A stretch of 36,737 nucleotides of DNA from a virus, in IMG/VR virus record IMGVR_UViG_3300023284_000344, positions 1 to 36,737 of that record. The stretch is one strand, 5' to 3'. The translations under genes were made by a program, and so were the position numbers. Numbering within the stretch: the stretch's first letter is position 1; the number at the start of each line of letters is the position of its first letter. This document shows positions 75 to 28,784 of this stretch, one piece after another. Below the pieces are notes generated by a model. It saw only the letters and a program-made list of their open reading frames with translations. It ran no database searches and had not been told where the DNA came from.

Positions 75-334
75 CCGATAAAGAACTTGCAGCAAAAGTG
101 GTGGCGCTCGGTATTGGTGAGCAAACAGAAAGCGAGGCTTATTGCGGTTACTACGTTCTGCGAGGCACACCAGAACCCATGTTGCCAGAGCGATTCGTTC
201 GAGACTGGCGAGTAGTGGGCGCTATTCTTGAAAAGGTGTCTATGGAGAAACCGGAACTGGATCACATAAAGATCAGTGTTCCTGCACAGGCGCGAGAAAT
301 AATTGAGTGGGGAGTGGAGATATTAAATGCGTGA
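71..334 (+). CDS. small hypothetical phage protein, 87 aa
   Basis: I chose the GTG at 71 because it overlaps the upstream TGA (GTGA) and has GGAG at 57-60 ten bases before it. A longer frame from 35 would begin with a Val/Arg/Trp-rich stretch that does not look natural. The protein starts MTDKELAAKVVALG and is mixed alpha/beta, with no membrane segment and no recognised motif. Such ~90-residue proteins are common in early operons of tailed phages. Its 3' end overlaps the HNH gene by 8 bases. No function can be assigned. Confidence 0.7.
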   Translation: MTDKELAAKVVALGIGEQTESEAYCGYYVLRGTPEPMLPERFVRDWRVVGAILEKVSMEKPELDHIKISVPAQAREIIEWGVEILNA

Positions 335-809
335 TTTACACACAGCAATACGCGACGTTCTTAATTATGACCCAGACACAGGGCGATTCACATGGACAGT
401 TAATCGCGGCACCATGAAAGCCGGGTGGATTGCTGGTCACAAAGATAATTATGGCAGACCCAAGTTACAGGTATTCGGACAGCGATATTTACAGTCTCGG
501 CTCGCGTGGTACTGGATGACAGGCGCTTGGCCGAAGGATCAGATTGACCACATCAATCAGGATCACTCAGATAACAGGTGGTTGAATCTGCGTGAGGCTA
601 CTTGCTCTGAAAACCAGATGAACAGAACGGTTCGCGCTGACAATAAGATTGGCTACAAAGGCGTGAGACAGGTAGGTAATCGCTTCCGCGCTGTGATCTG
701 GATTAACGGCAAGAACAAGCATCTTGGCTACTTCGATACTTGGTGGCTTGCTCACCGCGCTTACTGGCGGGCAGCGCAAGAATTACACGGCGAGTTTGCT
801 CATGCGTAA
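327..809 (+). CDS. HNH homing endonuclease with AP2 DNA-binding domain
   Basis: The N-terminal half is a phage HNH domain: a DPDTGRFTW entry, then QIDHINQDHSDNRWLNLREA, where DH supplies the catalytic His and the N-rich part is the usual N-x-N-L-R segment. CSENQMNR follows. The C-terminal half, residues 110-155, is an AP2-type domain: GYKGVRQVGNRFRAVIW, then LGYFDTWWLAHRAY. These proteins are free-standing homing nucleases that cut DNA lacking the gene and spread by repair. It lies in the same direction as the operon, overlaps the upstream gene by 8 bases, and has GGAG about nine bases before its ATG, so it is probably translated from the operon message. The assignment is secure at family level. 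Confidence 0.92.
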   Translation: MRDLHTAIRDVLNYDPDTGRFTWTVNRGTMKAGWIAGHKDNYGRPKLQVFGQRYLQSRLAWYWMTGAWPKDQIDHINQDHSDNRWLNLREATCSENQMNRTVRADNKIGYKGVRQVGNRFRAVIWINGKNKHLGYFDTWWLAHRAYWRAAQELHGEFAHA

Positions 810-2180: not shown

Positions 2181-2207
2181 AATAGGTATACATCAAATAC
2201 CGATTTA

Positions 2208-2216
2208 TGCGATAAT
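2208..2216 (+). promoter_or_regulatory. extended -10 promoter for leaderless HNH gene
   Basis: TGC plus GATAAT is one mismatch from TGnTATAAT. The hexamer ends at 2216 and the ATG is at 2223, a gap of six bases. The expected transcription start is therefore the A of the ATG. There is no Shine-Dalgarno before this ATG. No good -35 is visible, which fits an extended -10 promoter. The same arrangement occurs at 6803 and 23303. Confidence 0.6.
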
Positions 2217-2222
2217 TCACCA

Positions 2223-2642
2223 ATGCGAAAGCGTTGTTTCAAATGCAAACAGTACAAATCATTGGATCAGTTTTATCGACATCCGCAAATGGCAGACGGC
2301 CATCTTGGAAAATGTAAGCACTGCGCAAAAAAGGATGTTTCTGAGCATTATCAGGAAAATCGTAGCTATTATGCTGAATATGAAAGGAAGCGATCTCAAC
2401 AACCGGAACGGAAACAAAAGGCATTGGAATATCAGCGACGACGACGGGCGAAATATCCAGGTAGGTACAAAGCATACACAGCAGTATCTAATGCAATCCG
2501 CGACGGTCGTCTTGAACGGCAACCGTGTGAAGTATGCAGTATGAAAGCACAAGCACATCACGATGATTACAGACGACCGTTAGTTGTTCGTTGGCTTTGT
2601 CGGAAACATCACCTTGAGCATCATAGCAAGAAAGCATTTTAG
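2223..2642 (+). CDS. HNH-like zinc-finger endonuclease, 139 aa
   Basis: The N-terminus has a zinc ribbon (CFKCKQYKSLDQFY, then CKHC). A basic helical spacer follows (residues 50-85), rich in Arg, Lys and Tyr. The C-terminus has CEVC, then HHDDYRRPLVVRWLCRKHH. This C..C / HHDDY..PL..WLC..HH pattern belongs to a widespread phage family treated as HNH-type endonucleases, and the gene at 23318 shares it. The gene has no ribosome-binding site and appears leaderless. It lies between the SSB-like gene and the zinc-finger gene at 2752, so it is probably a mobile insert in the operon. Confidence 0.8.
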   Translation: MRKRCFKCKQYKSLDQFYRHPQMADGHLGKCKHCAKKDVSEHYQENRSYYAEYERKRSQQPERKQKALEYQRRRRAKYPGRYKAYTAVSNAIRDGRLERQPCEVCSMKAQAHHDDYRRPLVVRWLCRKHHLEHHSKKAF

Positions 2643-5762: not shown

Positions 5763-6416
5763 TTAATCTTCCTCAAGAATTGCTCGGAGTGCGGCCTTCT
5801 TTTCTTCGGTGAGACCGTACTGCTGAATGATCTGCGGTCGTTCGACCCGGATCTGTTGATACTGAGCCTGATTCTGATCGATCATTTGCTGTTGCTGCTG
5901 CAACTGTGTTGTTAGTTCCTCGAACTGATCGTTGCGCTCGTCCTCATCCTCATCGTATCTGGCAACCCTGTCTTTCAGAGCATCTATTTCTGGTGATCCT
6001 GTTACCTCAAAGGACACGGTGTTTGCTTCCTTACAATCCAGATCGCTCGTAAAGTGCTGTCGGATTACAGGGATATCACAGCGCATCAAGGCACCCATCT
6101 CGACAAGACCCTTCCTGTCATAGACCTCACCCATGCACCAGGCGTTGTAGTCGTAGCCCTGCCAACTGACAATGAATGAGCCTTTCTGGTGCGTGACGAT
6201 GCACTCGTTGATATCAACATCACCTAGACTGTGGGAGAAGCCATAGACGCGGGATGAGTCACCGCCAACAGTCACATCAGTAATGACTTCCGTTTCCTGC
6301 TCAATCTCACGGTATTGTGCTTTGGCTTTCTGCACGATTAAAAACAGCAGCAAAAACATTGCCGCCACAATCCACCAAAACAGATTGACCGGCTCGTATC
6401 TGTGATTTTGATTCAT
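5763..6416 (-). CDS. membrane-anchored periplasmic protein, 217 aa
   Basis: I use ATG 6416, which overlaps the upstream TGA as ATGA; a longer frame to 6461 adds an unlikely HIGCLGGG segment. One membrane helix lies at residues 12-30 (FWWIVAAMFLLLFLIV). An outer domain with Cys residues follows (VDINECIVTHQ, YNAWCMGEVYDRKGL, MRCDIPVI, DLDCKEAN), suggesting disulphides in the periplasm. The C-terminal 60 residues are acidic and then Gln-rich (LTTQLQQQQQMIDQNQ). The middle domain resembles a family seen in marine podoviruses near their lysis genes. Function is unknown. Confidence 0.65.
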   Translation of the reverse strand: MNQNHRYEPVNLFWWIVAAMFLLLFLIVQKAKAQYREIEQETEVITDVTVGGDSSRVYGFSHSLGDVDINECIVTHQKGSFIVSWQGYDYNAWCMGEVYDRKGLVEMGALMRCDIPVIRQHFTSDLDCKEANTVSFEVTGSPEIDALKDRVARYDEDEDERNDQFEELTTQLQQQQQMIDQNQAQYQQIRVERPQIIQQYGLTEEKKAALRAILEED

Positions 6417-6898
6417 AACACCGCCGCCAAGACACCCAATATGATCACGCCTCGGTGCCATAAATTATCCACGAAATGTGCTTTCTTTTCCTCGTCCAGT
6501 AACTGTTGCCGAATCTGACTGATTTGCTGCTGCATACGGCCAGCATCGATAAGCGAGTTGTAAGCCTGAGACTGAGATTTGAGTGCCTCGGCATTGGCCT
6601 GGGCGATCTCAACATTGCCCTCAGAGGTTATGACATAACGCTGTAGTTGCTCCATAGCGGCCTTATCAAAGGTCGCCAGGTCGCCCGAAATGCCCGCCTG
6701 TGGCAATACCGGCAGCGTCAGAGGGCTTTGAGCCTCTATTGAGGCTTTCTCGATGTCCCAATCCGGTAAAGTGACCGGATTAGTGGCACATGCCAATAGT
6801 AATGGTAAAATCAACAGATGACTAAATGCTCGATAAGCAATTGTAAAAATCCTAGTTTTTGTAGAGGTTGGTGTAATAAACATTACAAAAGATGGCAT
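6413..6898 (-). CDS. lipoprotein, spanin-like, with altered N-terminus, 161 aa
   Basis: A lipobox is clear: LILPLLLAC, with the lipidated Cys at residue 37. The mature part is a long charged helix (VEIAQANAEALKSQSQAYNS, RMQQQISQIRQQLLDEEKKA) and ends in a hydrophobic segment (GVIILGVLAAVL). A lipid anchor at one end and a membrane segment at the other is the plan of a unimolecular spanin, which fuses inner and outer membranes in lysis. The C-terminal segment is short, so an o-spanin partner for the gene at 7350 is an alternative. The first 27 residues are read antisense from the HNH gene at 6818, so this N-terminus was probably created by that insertion. Confidence 0.6.
   Translation of the reverse strand: MPSFVMFITPTSTKTRIFTIAYRAFSHLLILPLLLACATNPVTLPDWDIEKASIEAQSPLTLPVLPQAGISGDLATFDKAAMEQLQRYVITSEGNVEIAQANAEALKSQSQAYNSLIDAGRMQQQISQIRQQLLDEEKKAHFVDNLWHRGVIILGVLAAVL
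6803..6811 (+). promoter_or_regulatory. extended -10 promoter for leaderless HNH gene
   Basis: TGG plus TAAAAT is one mismatch from TGnTATAAT. The hexamer ends six bases before the ATG at 6818, so transcription should begin on the start codon. The -35 position (6783-6788, GTGGCA) matches TTGACA at four of six. No Shine-Dalgarno precedes the ATG. The element lies inside codons for the lipoprotein signal peptide on the other strand. Confidence 0.6.
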
Positions 6899-7387
6899 AA
6901 GTATGGCGATCCTTACAGGCTAATAAAACCAGCATTTATTCACGGATTAAGCAAAACAAGAACTTATTCCATATGGGCAGATATGAAAAGTCGATGTTTT
7001 AATACAAATCACCAAAGTTATACAAATTATGGTAAAAGAGGAATAACAGTATGTCCTGAATGGATTGATAGATTTGAATCATTTTTGCATGACATGGGCG
7101 AACCTCCCACGGCAAAACATCAACTTGATCGTAGAAATAATAATGGTAATTATGAACGTGACAATTGTCATTGGGTGACATCTAAAGAACAACAAAATAA
7201 TAAACGAAGCAACCATTTTCTTACACATAATGGGCAAACCATGACAGTTACACAATGGGCAGAATTACTTGGTGTAAAAAGAAACATGCTTTATAAAAGA
7301 CTTATTGCTGACTGGACTGTGGAAAAAACACTTACAAAACCCCCATCAGCTAAAAGTGATCTACGCGGTCAGCATTCCATGTGCTGA
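6818..7387 (+). CDS. HNH homing endonuclease with zinc finger and HTH tail, 189 aa
   Basis: Residues 4-33 form a small zinc module (CSISNCKNPSFCRGWCNKH). The HNH core is YGKRGITVCPEWIDRFESF, then HQLDRRNNNGNYERDNCHW and SKEQQNN, the standard phage pattern in which LDR-x-N-x-x-GNY-x-x-x-N is the active-site region. Residues 130-175 contain an HTH-like recognition segment (TVTQWAELLGVKRNMLYKRL, then WTVEKTLTKP). The gene is strikingly AT-rich beside its neighbours. It lies antisense between the spanin-like genes at 7350 and 6413 and overlaps both ends, so its stop codon comes from neighbour sequence. Confidence 0.9.
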   Translation: MTKCSISNCKNPSFCRGWCNKHYKRWHKYGDPYRLIKPAFIHGLSKTRTYSIWADMKSRCFNTNHQSYTNYGKRGITVCPEWIDRFESFLHDMGEPPTAKHQLDRRNNNGNYERDNCHWVTSKEQQNNKRSNHFLTHNGQTMTVTQWAELLGVKRNMLYKRLIADWTVEKTLTKPPSAKSDLRGQHSMC

Positions 7388-9210: not shown

Positions 9211-9219
9211 TGTTATAAT
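9211..9219 (+). promoter_or_regulatory. consensus extended -10 promoter for the HNH gene at 9311
   Basis: TGT plus TATAAT is a perfect extended -10. A six-base gap puts the predicted transcription start at G9226, which is the first base of a stem (GTGCC) in the leader described next. No -35 is evident. The motif lies just upstream of the tail fibre start on the other strand. Confidence 0.6.
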
Positions 9220-9225
9220 AACAGA

Positions 9226-9303
9226 GTGCCTAGACAAACGTAGTCGAAAACCCGGTTTCCGTACCGGGCTGGCACATTCCAAATACGGATCATCTAACGG
9301 AGG
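9226..9303 (+). promoter_or_regulatory. structured 5' leader, possible cis-regulatory RNA
   Basis: The leader begins with GTGCC (9226-9230), which pairs with GGCAC (9271-9275) to close a multi-branch structure. Inside it, CCCGGT (9251-9256) pairs with ACCGGG (9263-9268) around the loop TTCCGT (9257-9262). The loop's TCCGT is complementary to ACGGA at 9285-9289 and again to ACGGA at 9297-9301, and the second copy overlaps the Shine-Dalgarno GGAGG (9299-9303). A pseudoknot that hides or frees the ribosome-binding site is therefore possible. This is read from complementarity only; no known RNA family is recognised. Confidence 0.45.
9247..9268 (-). terminator. possible minus-strand terminator
   Basis: Read on the minus strand, CCCGGT-ACGGAA-ACCGGG is followed by TTTTC. 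It could weakly end transcription coming from the ejection genes before the tail fibre gene. The T-run is only four long. The same palindrome has a more specific reading as part of the plus-strand leader, so this is the second choice. Confidence 0.25.
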
Positions 9304-9310
9304 ATGTGTC

Positions 9311-9766
9311 ATGGCTAGAAAACAAGAACAACATGGAATGCGACATACGCCTGAATATGTAGCGTGGTTGCATTGTAAGGACCGATGTTTTAATAATAAA
9401 AGTCAAGATTTTCACGATTATGGTAAGCGTGGTATTACTGTTTGTGATCGATGGCGACATAGTTTCATAAACTTCTTTGCTGATATGAGTTATAAACCGT
9501 CATCAAATCATTCGCTAGATCGTATAGATAATGACGGTAATTATGAACCTTCAAATTGTCGATGGGCTACAAAAAAAGAACAAGCTCGAAATAGAAGATT
9601 ACAAAAAGGAAATATATCTGGCACAGCTGGTGTAACATGGCAAAAACAATGTAATAAATGGATTGTATTGCTTAATGTTAATGGCATTTTTAGATATTTC
9701 GGACTATATTCCGATCTTGATGAAGCAATTGCTGCACGCAAAGCTGCTGAATTAAAATATTGGTGA
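9311..9766 (+). CDS. HNH homing endonuclease with AP2-like C-terminus, 151 aa
   Basis: GGAGG lies seven bases before the ATG. The HNH core reads YGKRGITVCDRWRHSFINFF, then HSLDRIDNDGNYEPSNCRW and TKKEQARNR, the same pattern as the gene at 6818. The C-terminal 45 residues are AP2-like (GVTWQKQCNKWIVLLNVNGI, YFGLYSDLDEAIAARKAAEL), a DNA-recognition domain. The gene is AT-rich and antisense to the late unit, between the ejection protein at 9898 and the tail fibre gene. It is the only one of the four promoter-bearing HNH genes with a ribosome-binding site and a long leader. Confidence 0.92.
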   Translation: MARKQEQHGMRHTPEYVAWLHCKDRCFNNKSQDFHDYGKRGITVCDRWRHSFINFFADMSYKPSSNHSLDRIDNDGNYEPSNCRWATKKEQARNRRLQKGNISGTAGVTWQKQCNKWIVLLNVNGIFRYFGLYSDLDEAIAARKAAELKYW

Positions 9767-9769
9767 AAC

Positions 9770-9904
9770 ATGGTTAAATTACTACTTTGGATCATTGCAA
9801 TTCCGATTTGCTACATTTGGATGCAAGTAGATATTTGGTCTGGAATGGCAGCATGGATTCTGTTCCTTTGGTTACAAAGCCCTGACAAATTAGAAAATCA
9901 CTGA
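9770..9904 (+). CDS. small two-span membrane protein, 44 aa
   Basis: ATG 9770 lies three bases after the stop of the HNH gene, so the two would share a transcript. The product is MVKLLLWIIAIPICYIWMQV, then WSGMAAWILFLWLQ and a short polar tail: two hydrophobic spans rich in Trp and Ile. The 3' end overlaps the converging gene at 9898 by seven bases. It could be a true small membrane protein travelling with the nuclease or a chance frame; the clean membrane topology favours the former. Confidence 0.45.
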   Translation: MVKLLLWIIAIPICYIWMQVDIWSGMAAWILFLWLQSPDKLENH

Positions 9905-23258: not shown

Positions 23259-23302
23259 AGTGATTCTCGCTGTTGTTGCAGTGCTTCATTAATATGTTAT
23301 TG

Positions 23303-23311
23303 TGATACAAT
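23303..23311 (+). promoter_or_regulatory. extended -10 promoter for leaderless HNH gene
   Basis: TGA plus TACAAT is one mismatch from TGnTATAAT and ends six bases before ATG 23318, so the transcript should start on the start codon. It overlaps a perfect inverted repeat, TTATTGT (23297-23303) and ACAATAA (23307-23313), which could be an operator. No Shine-Dalgarno is present. Confidence 0.6.
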
Positions 23312-23317
23312 AAATTC

Positions 23318-23677
23318 ATGATCAAAACCACTTGCAGCCACTGTAAAAGCCAACTCGAAAAACATCGTATCGGAAAAAACAGGTATTGTCTTTCGTGTCA
23401 TGCAGCTTACATGAGAGCAAATCGGCCAAAGCACAGCGAAATATCTCCACAACAACGAATGAAAGCAAATGCACGTTCATATGCCAATGTCTATCTGCAA
23501 CGAGGAAAGATACAGAGAAGTCTCTGCAATTGTGGCGCTCCTGGCACCGAAATGCACCATGCTGATTATTCAAAACCTTTAGAAATCATATGGACTTGCC
23601 AGCCATGTCACCTGAGACTTCACGTGGAACATCAGGATAAGCCCGCTTCTGCTCGTCAGTCAGTCCAGCAATGGTAA
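23318..23677 (+). CDS. HNH-like zinc-finger endonuclease, 119 aa
   Basis: Two Cys pairs near the start (CSHCKSQLEKHRIG, YCLSCHAAY) are followed by a basic spacer. Then CNCGAPGTEMHHADYSKPLE and CQPCHLRLH form the catalytic zinc module. The HHADY..PL..W.C..CH pattern matches the gene at 2223. The last ~15 residues are read from antisense ParB-like sequence, so the natural end was probably near residue 102 and the present stop is borrowed. It is antisense to the terminase region and transcribed from its own promoter. Confidence 0.8.
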   Translation: MIKTTCSHCKSQLEKHRIGKNRYCLSCHAAYMRANRPKHSEISPQQRMKANARSYANVYLQRGKIQRSLCNCGAPGTEMHHADYSKPLEIIWTCQPCHLRLHVEHQDKPASARQSVQQW

Positions 23678-23894
23678 TGGTCGGCACCTTCAGCATGTCC
23701 ATGTTGAGTGCTGCCATCAGCCGACCGTGGCCAGCAATGATCTGATCGTTCTCATCTACCAGGATCGGATTGGTAAAACCGAACTCGACAATCGAGGCAA
23801 CAATCTGCTCGATCTGTTCCTGTGAGTGAGTACGGGCGTTGCGCTCGTACAGTTTAAGCCCATAGGCGTTCTTGTATTCGACCTTGAGCGTCAC
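23586..23894 (-). CDS. ParB-like nuclease-domain protein, C-terminally truncated, 102 aa
   Basis: A GTG start (GTGA overlap) follows GGAGGAAGT. The product has the ParB/Srx fold signatures: YERNARTHSQEQIEQIVASI, EFGFTNPILVDENDQIIAGH with GHGR, and VPTITIAGLTDEQKRAY. In full-length relatives the KRAY segment leads into an ADN-type helix and more; here it changes to PDVPREVSGDMAGKSI and stops, exactly where HNH-derived sequence begins. Only 60 bases separate the HNH start from the small terminase, so the missing part is not stored there. In phages such proteins often sit beside terminase genes. Confidence 0.75.
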   Translation of the reverse strand: MTLKVEYKNAYGLKLYERNARTHSQEQIEQIVASIVEFGFTNPILVDENDQIIAGHGRLMAALNMDMLKVPTITIAGLTDEQKRAYPDVPREVSGDMAGKSI

Positions 23895-24118: not shown

Positions 24119-24444
24119 CACGCCACCTGTGCGAAGTGCAGGTTCTTGACCCAGTAGATGTGTTCCTCATTGGCCTCGGATGTCAGGCCATTGTCCAGCT
24201 GCACCGACAATACCTTGCGCTCGCGCTTGCGACTAAGACGCTGAATCACATGCGCCGATGCCGGGATAGTAATTGTCATCTCGGTGGATGCAACGAGCGC
24301 AGTCCAGGCAATCAATTCTTCACGTGTTTGAAAATCATCCAGGCGATAGCGTGCCGTGGTCGGTGTGAACTGTGCATTGTCCTTGTCGATGGGGCGTACC
24401 ACAAAGGTTGCCGTGGAATCCTCATTGAAAGTTCGCTTGGCCAT
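24118..24444 (-). CDS. small beta-rich structural-type protein, 108 aa
   Basis: ATG 24444 overlaps the stop of the giant repeat gene (TGATG) and is preceded by AGAGGAA. The product is ATFVVRPIDKDNAQFTPTTA, then RYRLDDFQTREELIAW, TEMTITIPASAHVI and RERKVLSVQLDNG: strands separated by short loops in an Ig-like order. Proteins with the pattern YR-x-DD ... W ... ITI ... VTV lie beside virion decoration or fibre genes in many phages. Its join to the giant gene suggests a partner in the virion. Confidence 0.6.
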   Translation of the reverse strand: MAKRTFNEDSTATFVVRPIDKDNAQFTPTTARYRLDDFQTREELIAWTALVASTEMTITIPASAHVIQRLSRKRERKVLSVQLDNGLTSEANEEHIYWVKNLHFAQVA

Positions 24445-27400
24445 CAGCAATTCCTCTGCAGTATCGCAATCAAGGTGTTGGGCGACTTGCCTGTGATCGC
24501 GATTGTATCATCCTCTGCTTTGATACCAACAGTGGGTGCCTCACCGCTAACCGGTATGGTGATGTCCTCTGCCTTGATCAATATCTTAGGCCCACTGCCT
24601 GTAATCAGAATACGATCAACAGTCGATGGTTTTGGTGCCGGCACCAATGCCGCCGACTTGGGATGCTGATACGGGGTCTGTCTGAATTTCGCCGGTGGCG
24701 TGATCCAATCATCTTGTAAGAATGGTTTCTCACCTTCGAACTCGATAAGCGCCAAAGCCGTACCGAGTACCGCTGGCGGTTCAGGCGGGTCTGACAGGAA
24801 TTTAATCAGGTGAATAACGCCAAACGGCTTTTCACCAGCATCCTCAAGGATTGTTAATGGGATACCTACCTGGAAAGGCGTCTGAATCTGTACGTCGACA
24901 GTCGGGTTCGGCCAATCGTGCTGCCTAATTTCCGGTGGTTCCGGCTCAACCAGTGCGACAGACTTCGGATGTTGATAAGGCGTTTGTGTTGGTTTTGCCG
25001 GTGGTGTTATCCAATCGCTTTGTTCGAATGGTTTGTCACCCGCATCCTCGATCAACGGTAACGAACTGCCGACCTGGAAGGGTTGCTGAGTCGGTAGTTG
25101 CTCGATCCTGCCAAGCGTAAATCTCGGCAGGGAGTCGACAACTTGTGTGACTAAGGTGGCTGGCTTAGGAGTCTGGAAAGGCTGCTGCGTTATTGGACTA
25201 AACGGGTTCAGCCAATCACTTTGATTGAACGGTTTCTCACCAGCGCCTTCTATCAGGGCTAATGGACTGCCCACCTGCAATGGTGTCTGGCGTTTGAACG
25301 GCTCAGGATTCGGGAACTTCTCCTCCATGAACGGCGGTTCTGGAACACCAGCAATCAGCGGTAAGAAAGTGCCTACCTGAAATGGCACCTGTCGCTTGAA
25401 CGCTGGTGGCGTGATCCAGTCATCCTGTACAAAAGAACGCCCCAGAATGTGCGCGAACATGCGATTGTCAGCAGTAATCGGCACAGCATCCAGAGTAATC
25501 TCGAACTCGTACTCATCACCCGCGACGTTATCGGCAGCCCTGAACTCAATCGACCAATAGAACTCGTAGTCATCCCCCGGTCCGATATTCTGTGGATTGG
25601 TGCCGGCTTCTTTATAAACAGAACCGACAAAGTTCTGCGGTGTCGGGGTGAGTCGTTCTACTGCCGATGTAGCACCGTCAACATCCGGGCCATCAATAAC
25701 CCTGACATTGCTGCTGGCAGCAGTAACAAATTCAGATGGTGCGCCGTTCTTGATATAGCGAAGGGCGAATGATGGATCAGCAGATGCAGCCCCGTCGTTG
25801 TGAATCTTGCTGATCAGCAGGAATGGCTTACCCAACTCACCAATAGATATGCCAAGCCCCGGTGAGGCTTGATCTTCAGAGCCTAAGAGAGTGCAAAGCT
25901 CATGCGAGGCGTTGTCATCATCGGTCCATTGGTAGTGCGCTATATCCGGGTTTCTGCCGATATGTAACTGAAGCGAACTGCTGATCTGAACCGGCTCTTG
26001 AATCGGCTCTGGAAAACCCGGAGTAATCCAGTCACTCTGATCGAATGGTTTGTCACCCGCGTCCTGAATGATCGTTAAGGGACTGCCTACCTGGAACGGT
26101 GTCTGTGTTGGCAGCGGCTCTGGCTGCGGCCAGTCATTAAGCCTGAACCGTCTCTCTGGTGGTGGTGTTTCCAGCAGCACATACGATGAGCCAAGCTGGA
26201 AAGGCGTCTCTCGTGCAAACGGTTCCGGTTGCGGCCAATCGTCAAATTTGAAGGGCTTATCGCCAGCGTCCTCAAGAACAACCAGCGGCATACCGTATTG
26301 GTATGGCTGTTGTGTAGGCTTGGCAGAAGGTACCGGCCACTTGATCTCTTGGAATGGCGGCTCCGGTGGTGCAACCAATACGACCGGGATGCCAAGCTGG
26401 AATGGTGTCTGTGTTGGTACTGCCGGTGGCACTGGCCACTTGAGCTCAAAGAAAGGCGGCTCAGGCTCGGTAAATTCCAGCGGCAGGATCGTGCCAACCT
26501 GAACAGGGGTCTGTCGTTTGTCAGGTGGCGGGTTGATCCAATCACTTTGCTCGAACGGTTTGTTGCCAGCATCTTCTAAAATACCCAAAGGCAGTCCGAG
26601 TTGAACTGGCGTCTGCCTGAATTTCGCTGGTGGAACAGGCCACTTGAGCTCGAAAAATGGCGGCTCGGGTTCTGCAAATATCAGAGGTAATAGCGTGCCA
26701 AGCTGGAACGGCGCCTGAACTTGTATCGCTGGTGGCTTCGGCCAATCAGACTGCAGGAACGGCTTGCCAATTAACGGTTGAGAACTACCTATTTGTAATG
26801 GCTGTTGAGTCGGGATCGGTTCTGGGTTTGGCCAATCAAGCTGTGCGAACGGCGCCGCCGGCAGTTCAAGCAATGTAATCGGTGCGGCTACCTGGAACGG
26901 CTGTTGCCGGAACGCTTTCTCAATGCGACCAAGAACAAGTCTTGGTTGAGAATCGACAACCTCTACAACTAAAACTGGTGGCTGTGGAAGTTGGAATGGC
27001 TCTTGTGTTATTGGAACTTGTGGGTTCGGCCACTCAGTTTTCAGGAAAGGTTTGTCACCAGCATCCTCGAGGATTGCTAGCGGCATACCAAGCTGCAGCG
27101 GTGTTTGCCTTGTAAACTGCTCTGGATTCAGCCAGTCGCTTTGCAAGAATGGTTTAGTAGCAACCTCAAGTACCGCAGATGAAGTACCTACCTGGAATGG
27201 CTGTTGAGTTGGGATCGCCGCCGGAACCGGCCATTTAATCTCAAGGAATGGTGGTTCGGGCTCGGCAAAAATTAGTGGTAATTGTGCGCCAAGCTGAAGC
27301 GGTGTTTGCCGCACATCTACCGGCGGCGTGATCCAATCCGATTGTAGGAAGGGCTTGGCACCGGCATCCTCAAGAATCGGCAGCGGCATACCGACTTGGA

Positions 27401-28784
27401 GTGGGGTCTGTCTTTTCTCTGCCGCTGGCGTGGGCCACTTTATTTCTAAGAAAGGTGGCTCTGGTTCCGTGAACTCAAGCGGTAATATGGTGCCGACCTG
27501 GAATGGTGTTTGAACCTTCAGATCAACAGTTGGATTCGGCCAGTCGCTCTGTAGAAATGGCTTTTCTTCTGCAGCTAAGGTGATCGGCTGAGCAAACTGC
27601 TGCGGTTGCTGGACACGCTCGACAGTCGGGTTCAGCCAGTCGAGTTGTGCAAATGGTTTTATCCTCAGCCCAAGTGGAATACCTGCTTGATCCGGCTGCT
27701 GAATTTGCTCAACAGACGGCACCAACCAGTCGGACTGATCGAATGGTTTCTCGCCAGCGTCAGTAAGAATCGGCAGAGACATACCAAGCTGGAAGGGAGT
27801 CTGCCGCTTGTGAGGTTCAGGTATCGGCCACTTCAGTTCGAAAAACGGAGGTTCAGGTGCCGTGAAAATCAGCGGCAGCAGAGTGCCTAGCTGGAATGGC
27901 GTTTGACGTTTATGCGGTTCAGGATTGGGCCAGTCATAGAAAGCAAACGGACTGATTTCTAAAATTGGTATCGGACTGCCAACTTGAAACGGTGTCTGTC
28001 GGAACTTAGCCGGTGGCACAGGCCACTTCAGTTCAAAGAACGGTGGTTCTGGTTCGGCAAAGATTAACGGCAGTAAGGTGCCGACCTGGAACGGGGTTTG
28101 CCGTAACTTCGGTGGCGGTACTGGCCACCGAATCTCCATAAACGGTGGCTCAGGTTCAGCGAAGATCAGCGATAGTAATGTGCCAAGCTGAAGCGGTGTT
28201 TGTGTCGGTAGCGGCGGTGGATTTATCCAGTCGGATTGATCAAAGGGCTTCTCAACGGAAACCAGTGCCGTAAAACTACCGTGTTGCTCTGGCTCCTCGC
28301 GCTCAAAAGCAGGCGGTGTGATCCAGTCACTCTGTAAGAAGGGCTTGTCACCGGCATCCTCAAGTATGGGCAGCGGTATGCCGACCTGCACCGGCGTCTG
28401 ACGTTTATCGGGCGATGGCTGTGGCCACTCAGATTGTCTTTGTGGTGGTGGTTCTGGTGGTTCTGGCTCCCCACCAATTAAGGCGATAGGACTACCAAGC
28501 AAGTCCGGTGGCCGGGTCGAGCGAATAAATACATAGTCGAAATCCGCCTGAATCGTTAAATCAGTGCTTGGTGGTGGGACAAGAACAATAGGTTTCGGCA
28601 GCTGGAACGGCTGCTGAATTACCTTCGGGGGAGGATTGGGCCAGTCGTCTTGCGCGAATGGCTTTTCGCCGGCAGTCTCAAGAATGCCAAGCGGCATCCC
28701 TGAGACAATCGCTATGGCTGCCGCATGGCCGACAGCGCGCGTCAGAGTTTCGCGCTTACTAAAATGCGGAGCGCGAATGGTCAT
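24444..28784 (-). CDS. giant Pro/Trp/Phe-rich repeat protein, probable virion fibre, 1446 aa
   Basis: Nearly the whole protein is built from about 34 modules of 33-40 residues. Each has a tip such as KPFLQSDWINPP or PPFFELKWPVPPAK, then RQTPFQVG and a hydrophobic stretch such as LPLIFAEPE or LPILEDAG. Two kinds alternate loosely: SDW type and ELKW type. A folded, beta-rich insert of about 180 residues (935-1115; bases about 25440-25980) breaks the series. The C-terminus has a different repeat (PKILIKAEDITIPVSG, PTVGIKAEDDTIAITG). Related short W-x-x-P modules occur in marine phage proteins of unknown role. A rod or surface fibre is likely; enzyme motifs are absent. It could also be a scaffold-like filler. 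Confidence 0.7.
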   Translation of the reverse strand: MTIRAPHFSKRETLTRAVGHAAAIAIVSGMPLGILETAGEKPFAQDDWPNPPPKVIQQPFQLPKPIVLVPPPSTDLTIQADFDYVFIRSTRPPDLLGSPIALIGGEPEPPEPPPQRQSEWPQPSPDKRQTPVQVGIPLPILEDAGDKPFLQSDWITPPAFEREEPEQHGSFTALVSVEKPFDQSDWINPPPLPTQTPLQLGTLLSLIFAEPEPPFMEIRWPVPPPKLRQTPFQVGTLLPLIFAEPEPPFFELKWPVPPAKFRQTPFQVGSPIPILEISPFAFYDWPNPEPHKRQTPFQLGTLLPLIFTAPEPPFFELKWPIPEPHKRQTPFQLGMSLPILTDAGEKPFDQSDWLVPSVEQIQQPDQAGIPLGLRIKPFAQLDWLNPTVERVQQPQQFAQPITLAAEEKPFLQSDWPNPTVDLKVQTPFQVGTILPLEFTEPEPPFLEIKWPTPAAEKRQTPLQVGMPLPILEDAGAKPFLQSDWITPPVDVRQTPLQLGAQLPLIFAEPEPPFLEIKWPVPAAIPTQQPFQVGTSSAVLEVATKPFLQSDWLNPEQFTRQTPLQLGMPLAILEDAGDKPFLKTEWPNPQVPITQEPFQLPQPPVLVVEVVDSQPRLVLGRIEKAFRQQPFQVAAPITLLELPAAPFAQLDWPNPEPIPTQQPLQIGSSQPLIGKPFLQSDWPKPPAIQVQAPFQLGTLLPLIFAEPEPPFFELKWPVPPAKFRQTPVQLGLPLGILEDAGNKPFEQSDWINPPPDKRQTPVQVGTILPLEFTEPEPPFFELKWPVPPAVPTQTPFQLGIPVVLVAPPEPPFQEIKWPVPSAKPTQQPYQYGMPLVVLEDAGDKPFKFDDWPQPEPFARETPFQLGSSYVLLETPPPERRFRLNDWPQPEPLPTQTPFQVGSPLTIIQDAGDKPFDQSDWITPGFPEPIQEPVQISSSLQLHIGRNPDIAHYQWTDDDNASHELCTLLGSEDQASPGLGISIGELGKPFLLISKIHNDGAASADPSFALRYIKNGAPSEFVTAASSNVRVIDGPDVDGATSAVERLTPTPQNFVGSVYKEAGTNPQNIGPGDDYEFYWSIEFRAADNVAGDEYEFEITLDAVPITADNRMFAHILGRSFVQDDWITPPAFKRQVPFQVGTFLPLIAGVPEPPFMEEKFPNPEPFKRQTPLQVGSPLALIEGAGEKPFNQSDWLNPFSPITQQPFQTPKPATLVTQVVDSLPRFTLGRIEQLPTQQPFQVGSSLPLIEDAGDKPFEQSDWITPPAKPTQTPYQHPKSVALVEPEPPEIRQHDWPNPTVDVQIQTPFQVGIPLTILEDAGEKPFGVIHLIKFLSDPPEPPAVLGTALALIEFEGEKPFLQDDWITPPAKFRQTPYQHPKSAALVPAPKPSTVDRILITGSGPKILIKAEDITIPVSGEAPTVGIKAEDDTIAITGKSPNTLIAILQRNC
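24640..28720 (-). repeat. array of ~34 diverged ~37-codon modules
   Basis: The protein-level repeat is obvious, but neighbouring DNA copies differ at many silent positions, so the array is old or has been kept varied. About 30 units keep the W of the DW or KW tip. Two units are altered in the same way (VVDSQPRLVLGRIE and VVDSLPRFTLGRIE) and look like copies of each other moved to two places. Confidence 0.85.

Follow-up and report, generated by a model that had tools for sequence, protein, structure and literature searches.

Predicted promoters six bases before the ATG of phage HNH endonuclease genes: probable leaderless expression in a minority of free-standing nucleases

Introduction

How a free-standing nuclease gene is expressed once it has landed in a foreign transcription unit, often in antisense orientation, is poorly understood. 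Leaderless mRNAs are well known, and a promoter from which transcription starts at the gene's own ATG would occupy about 40 bp and would require neither a leader nor a Shine-Dalgarno (SD) sequence. The question was raised for the phage locus considered here by a preliminary description, in which three HNH genes were each found to have an extended -10 element ending six bases before the ATG. From this spacing leaderless mRNAs were predicted, and it was suggested that the arrangement may be a general design that lets mobile nucleases be expressed wherever they land. Whether the promoters are what they appear to be, and how widely the arrangement is distributed among related genes, are the questions addressed below.

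HNH genes and extended -10 sites in the window

The window, meaning the whole stretch of DNA that was analysed, is an entire IMG/VR virus record of 36,737 bases from a tailed phage whose terminase is distant, with 21-33% identity to the best phage matches among those listed. It holds five HNH genes, named here by their first base (Table 1), and those at 2223, 6818 and 23318 are HNH-type nucleases by their PHROG matches; a Pfam search of these three gave no match. Genes 6818 and 23318 are antisense to every neighbour, 23318 lying between a terminase small-subunit-like gene and a ParB-like gene, and 9311 is antisense as well; every HNH gene within a minus-strand region has an extended -10.

Table 1. 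Coordinates of HNH genes, promoter-like elements and repeated motifs in the window
Feature	Position	Strand	Remarks
HNH_3 gene	327..809	+	PF13392, E=8e-12; overlaps preceding gene; SD GGAG
HNH / endonuclease VII-like gene	2223..2642	+	PHROG 2340, E=4e-30; behind SSB-like gene
HNH gene, N-terminal Cys motif	6818..7387	+	PHROG 3377, E=2e-55; antisense to neighbouring genes
HNH gene	9311..9766	+	PHROG 374; SD GGAGG at 9299-9303
HNH gene, CHAAYMRA family	23318..23677	+	PHROG 2340, partial match
Extended -10 TGCGATAAT	2208..2216	+	ends 6 nt before ATG 2223
Extended -10 TGGTAAAAT	6803..6811	+	ends 6 nt before ATG 6818
Extended -10 TGATACAAT	23303..23311	+	ends 6 nt before ATG 23318
Perfect extended -10 TGTTATAAT	9211..9219	+	about 91 nt before HNH ATG 9311
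Weak -35-like TATACA	2187..2192	+	consensus scan; 18 nt before GATAAT
-35-like GTGGCA	6783..6788	+	consensus scan; 17 nt before TAAAAT
Imperfect palindrome TTATTGTGATACAATAA	23297..23313	+	includes GTGATACA (23302-23309), one mismatch to GTGRAACA
3' copy of family motif, CTTCACGTGGAACA	23618..23631	+	GTGGAACA at 23624-23631
ParB-like gene	23586..23894	-	truncated after Tyr86 (nt 23637), 6 nt past 3' motif copy

The coordinates, hexamers and six-base gaps of the three -10 sites proved exact, and the lack of an SD sequence before these genes was confirmed; the accompanying statement that most genes here have an SD was too strong, as a loose test places one before 24 of 54 candidate genes. The -35 sequences are poor (TATACA for 2223, GTGGCA for 6818 and GCTTCA for 23318), and the TG extension is present in all three. 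When an extended -10 is defined as TG together with at least five of the six bases of TATAAT at extended -10 spacing, the 36.7 kb contain seven sites on the plus strand and 12 on the minus strand, and three of the seven plus-strand sites end 6 nt before the ATG of an ORF of more than 100 aa, these ORFs being the three HNH genes. The probability of such an element at a given offset is 0.00034 per ATG, taken over all 1,249 ATGs of the window, and by the authors' own arithmetic, with all offsets allowed, agreement of three of five HNH genes at one offset would be expected by chance with a probability of about 1e-8. With this few plus-strand sites, three of them at HNH ATGs, chance is therefore very unlikely. 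The preliminary description had spoken of three of three; the improbability of the agreement stands, but the ratio is three of five, genes 327 and 9311 having been omitted.

Genes 327 and 9311 each have an SD sequence and are counter-examples to a leaderless rule. They lend weight to the explanation that the pattern reflects chance together with selective sampling, the rule having been read off afterwards from three genes chosen among five. That explanation is nevertheless very improbable in view of the scarcity of plus-strand sites and the low per-ATG probability, and of the offset-specific peaks in two further gene sets that are described below. For gene 9311, the GTG of a five-codon ORF lies 6 nt downstream of TGTTATAAT (9211-9219), and the leader contains a GC-rich inverted repeat, cccggtttccgtaccggg (window 9211-9300), followed by the SD of 9311; the region 9211-9300 is possibly a leader with a start of its own.

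Gene 2223 and its relatives

Gene 2223 lies in a plus-strand gene cluster, 42 nt behind a gene with the SSB-like tail DDLSDVPF. In 15 annotated phages that carry relatives of 2223, from Vibrio, Escherichia, Pseudomonas, Erwinia, Xanthomonas and uncultivated sources, the upstream neighbour is annotated as SSB in nine and is unnamed in the rest. This conserved place directly behind the SSB gene, found in several phage genera, speaks against mobility: by its context, 2223 would be not a mobile gene but one half of a conserved pair with the SSB gene. A -10-like hexamer at offset 6 (six bases before the start codon) precedes none of 18 relatives of 2223, SD-like sequences precede eight of them, and several overlap the preceding gene. 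The -10 site before 2223 may be real, but it is no family trait, and the result for its relatives counts on the side of chance.

A transcript of the SSB-like gene could extend into 2223, a possibility that touches on a second explanation, namely that the HNH genes are expressed mainly from longer transcripts, with SD-less translation on a leader, and that the -10 sites are weak or secondary. The position of 2223 in a plus-strand cluster suits this explanation, as does the observation that the free-standing endonuclease genes of T4 mostly lack promoters of their own and use upstream ones (PMC2988022). Genes 6818 and 23318 stand against it, each having oppositely oriented neighbours and no same-strand gene directly upstream, and longer transcripts are an unlikely main source of expression.

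Relatives of genes 6818 and 9311

A single broad family (PHROGs 374 and 3377) includes both 6818 and 9311, which share 38% identity. The upstream regions of their relatives were assessed with a composite promoter score that adds the matches to TTGACA and TATAAT and a bonus for TG, a consensus that may not be that of the host; the score was fixed after the first sets had been inspected. In a first viral set of 43 relatives, five promoter-like sites fall at offset 6 and none at offsets 5 and 7, with a mean of 0.37 per offset elsewhere, and in a second viral set of 76 relatives there are four at offset 6 and again none at offsets 5 and 7, with a background of 0.57. When the viral sets are pooled, offset-6 sites precede 9 of 119 genes (about 8%) versus 8 of 695 controls (p=2e-4), the controls being genes of the fetched viral contigs that likewise lack a close upstream ORF on the same strand. 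Eleven viral positives of this type lie at offsets 5-8, none of them with an SD; nine are at exactly 6 and the other two at 8. The clearest cases read TTGACA-17-TATGTT-6-ATG (L096 and its close relative L106) and TTGACA-17-TAATCT-6-ATG (L222), with no SD in any.

The enrichment in homologous genes that the preliminary description had proposed as a check is thus offset-specific by the composite score, but it is not seen with the simple extended -10 (TG plus at least four of six bases), which occurs at offset 6 in none of the 76 genes of the held-out set, a failure that again favours chance; the -10 alone at offset 6 gave p=0.07 in the held-out set. In bacterial and archaeal genomes, one of 72 genes has a match at offset 6 and three at offset 7 (4/72 for offsets 6-7). 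Over all 191 genes pooled, offset 6 collects 10 matches and every other offset at most five. Given that replication failed with the simpler criteria, that the score was set post hoc and that one of the 72 prokaryote genes has a site at offset 6, the effect is modest and concerns a minority of genes.

Among the control genes, too, there is a small excess at offset 6, the 8 of 695 being the peak over the 30 offsets that were scored; leaderless initiation may therefore extend to other phage genes that stand alone. Opposite gene 6818, the -10 at 6803 overlaps the antisense codons LLILPLLLAC of a lipoprotein-like ORF on the minus strand (6413-6898), the N-terminal part of which is antisense to the start of the HNH gene; a search for relatives of this ORF found none.

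The family of gene 23318

The family of gene 23318, marked by the conserved CHAAYMRA, comprises 63 loci in IMG/VR, and a scan of 84,980 prokaryote genomes gave no confirmed relative. A start could be assigned in 49 non-redundant genes, one of them the window gene, and 14 of these score 8 or more at offsets 5-8, versus 2.4% in other offset windows; with the window gene excluded, the count is 13 of 48 relatives (about 27%) versus 17 of 695 controls (p=3e-9). Sequences resembling -35 and -10 elements concentrate at offsets 6-7 and not at neighbouring offsets, and a check for same-strand coupling to an upstream ORF found none in most promoter-bearing members. Several of the positives have in common the sequence TGTTTC-Y-GTGRAACAAT, in which AACAAT lies 6 or 7 bases before the start codon, and the window's GTGATACAAT aligns to it without gaps.

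The conserved palindrome formed by this sequence overlaps the -10 of the family, and it is not confined to the upstream side. GTGRAACA is found in the 5' window of 19 of 54 loci (20 sites) and in the 3' window of 12 of 54, 23318 among the latter; the 3' copies all have one orientation, and a reversed control motif gave 0. Of the 20 5' sites, 12 have the left arm TGTTYC (p=7e-18). The GTG of the motif serves some members as start codon, others have their stop codon in the TGA of GTGAAACA, and a 16-mer of the motif, searched for over whole records, is mostly restricted to HNH units. Because a second copy occurs at the 3' end, the motif would seem to mark a mobile unit's end or target and to act as a promoter as well, and its conservation in this family need not be for the promoter alone.

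The arrangement in the window is consistent with such a unit. Relatives of the ParB-like gene extend about 100 residues beyond the point at which its homology stops, and no C-terminal half could be found in the rest of the window; position 23637, together with the 3' motif copy, seems to mark the edge of an insertion. No gene was convincingly restored when the sequences flanking the two motif copies were joined, and a search for empty sites found none close enough among 38 terminase relatives or for the lipoprotein-like gene.

From these observations a third explanation arises, which is possible though on the doubtful side: the motif of this family may have been kept because it marks the end of a mobile HNH unit or the unit's target site, or because it acts as an operator, with its likeness to a -10 being incidental. 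The 5' and 3' copies with their single 3' orientation and the blank reversed control, the left arm at more than half of the 5' sites, the use of the motif's GTG as start or TGA as stop codon at several loci, the end of ParB-like homology 6 nt from the 3' copy, and the near restriction of the 16-mer to HNH units all favour it. It leaves unexplained, however, the TTG at -35 in four of the 11 sites that contain GTGRAACAAT (p=9e-4, at a chance of 0.04 per site), the TATAAT-like hexamers that L071, L059, L046 and L056 have at offsets 5-8 with or without the GTGRAACA motif, and the sites before genes 2223 and 6818, where the motif is absent; an end or target role may, moreover, coexist with promoter function.

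As a marker of units, TTGTTTCNGTGRAACAAT was rejected: an unbiased scan of IMG/VR returned 17 stretches, of which only two precede HNH genes and the others have no adjoining HNH gene, so the motif alone does not mark units. A reading of the palindrome as a true parS was likewise set aside, because the arms are spaced differently (15 bases at many 5' sites) and the sequence is found almost exclusively at HNH units. At the end of gene 9311, GTGAAACA (9763-9770) includes the stop codon, as in several members of the 23318 family; considered as a common end of the 9311 family, it was discarded, being present in one of 42 genes, the window's own.

Further observations concern open frames. Two members of the 23318 family lie out of frame within an in-frame insertion in the terminase large subunit (L060, 441-2369; L050, 1-1173); the terminase frame is open throughout, and the insertion is absent from phage Pam5. 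A 944-codon open frame with no PHROG match runs across the HNH gene of L058 (465-3296) in another frame of the same strand. In the window, the minus strand at 24444-28784 holds a 1446-codon ORF composed mostly of proline-rich repeats of the type KPFLQSDWPNP...RQTPFQVG.

Predicted leaderless expression

The best reading, to which a probability of about 0.55 may be assigned, is that the three HNH genes have promoters of the sigma-70 type with an extended -10 that give rise to leaderless mRNAs. Host RNA polymerase with its main sigma factor would bind the extended -10, and as the normal start point would then be the A of the ATG, leaderless mRNAs would be made, on which 70S ribosomes would initiate at the bare 5' AUG with no SD, in the way established for leaderless mRNAs. 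Such a unit could be expressed at any landing place and in either orientation, which would suit small genes inserted opposite to the surrounding transcription. In the 23318 family, the palindrome TGTTTC-Y-GTGRAACAAT at the 5' end of the unit would hold the -10, and the 3' end often has a second copy, so that one sequence appears to be both unit end or target and promoter.

The leaderless reading gains from the relatives of 23318 and of 6818 and 9311, in which -35 and -10 sequences cluster at offset 6, or at 6-7 in the 23318 family, but the general design does not follow: the arrangement is present in about 27% of the 23318 family and about 8% of genes of the 6818/9311 type, but in none of the 18 relatives of 2223. 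It thus seems to recur, but in a minority of the free-standing HNH genes of phages, and not to be a universal design. A more elaborate proposal for the 23318 family, which is speculative and rather unlikely to hold in full, is that its parS-like palindrome combines a unit end or target, the -10 and spacer of a leaderless promoter and possibly an operator for self-repression by the nuclease, such that each unit would bring with it, or build on landing, a promoter for its own ATG.

If true, leaderless expression from such promoters would account for the expression of antisense phage HNH genes and would supply a sequence signature that can be searched for. The repeated palindrome, if its role is as proposed, would offer an initial lead to the target of the 23318 family, an uncharacterised group of HNH proteins carried by viruses.

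Comparison with known systems

A literature search found no report of promoters at this offset before phage HNH genes. The arrangement itself has counterparts, in that the lambda cI transcript from PRM is a leaderless mRNA. So is that of pvuIIC of the PvuII restriction system, for which initiation by 70S ribosomes on a bare 5' AUG has been discussed (PMC2997769). In both of these regulatory genes, as is predicted here, the promoter is so placed that the start coincides with the initiator codon, translation is independent of an SD, and the gene resides on a mobile unit; unlike here, where the genes encode HNH nucleases and the start is deduced from sequence, the starts of those transcripts have been mapped experimentally.

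The seg and mob genes of T4 are likewise free-standing phage endonuclease genes situated between conserved genes. Translation signals are reported for only six of 12, and seven of 12 are described as promoter-less cassettes served by upstream promoters (PMC2988022). In this the T4 genes, most of which are described as lacking promoters, differ from the HNH genes considered here, which have predicted promoters of their own. In the mycobacteriophage ShiLan, an insertion in a methylase gene contains a hidden HNH frame that has no ribosome binding site, and leaderless initiation has been proposed for it (PMC11855218). The terminase insertions of L050 and L060, which are in frame and hide a member of the 23318 family out of frame, are similar; the ShiLan proposal differs in that it concerns initiation on the transcript of the host gene, and an analysis of promoters is absent from that study (PMC11855218).

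A parallel to the proposed double use of the palindrome is offered by I-TevI, the operator of which resembles its homing site and overlaps a promoter just upstream of the ORF (PMC2988022). There, a target-like sequence covers the promoter, much as the GTGRAACA palindrome, a putative target, lies over the -10 in the 23318 family. I-TevI differs in being an intron-encoded GIY-YIG endonuclease with a T4 late promoter and a tested operator, whereas the palindrome is a putative site recognised from sequence; by analogy, nucleases of the 23318 family might repress their own synthesis at it.
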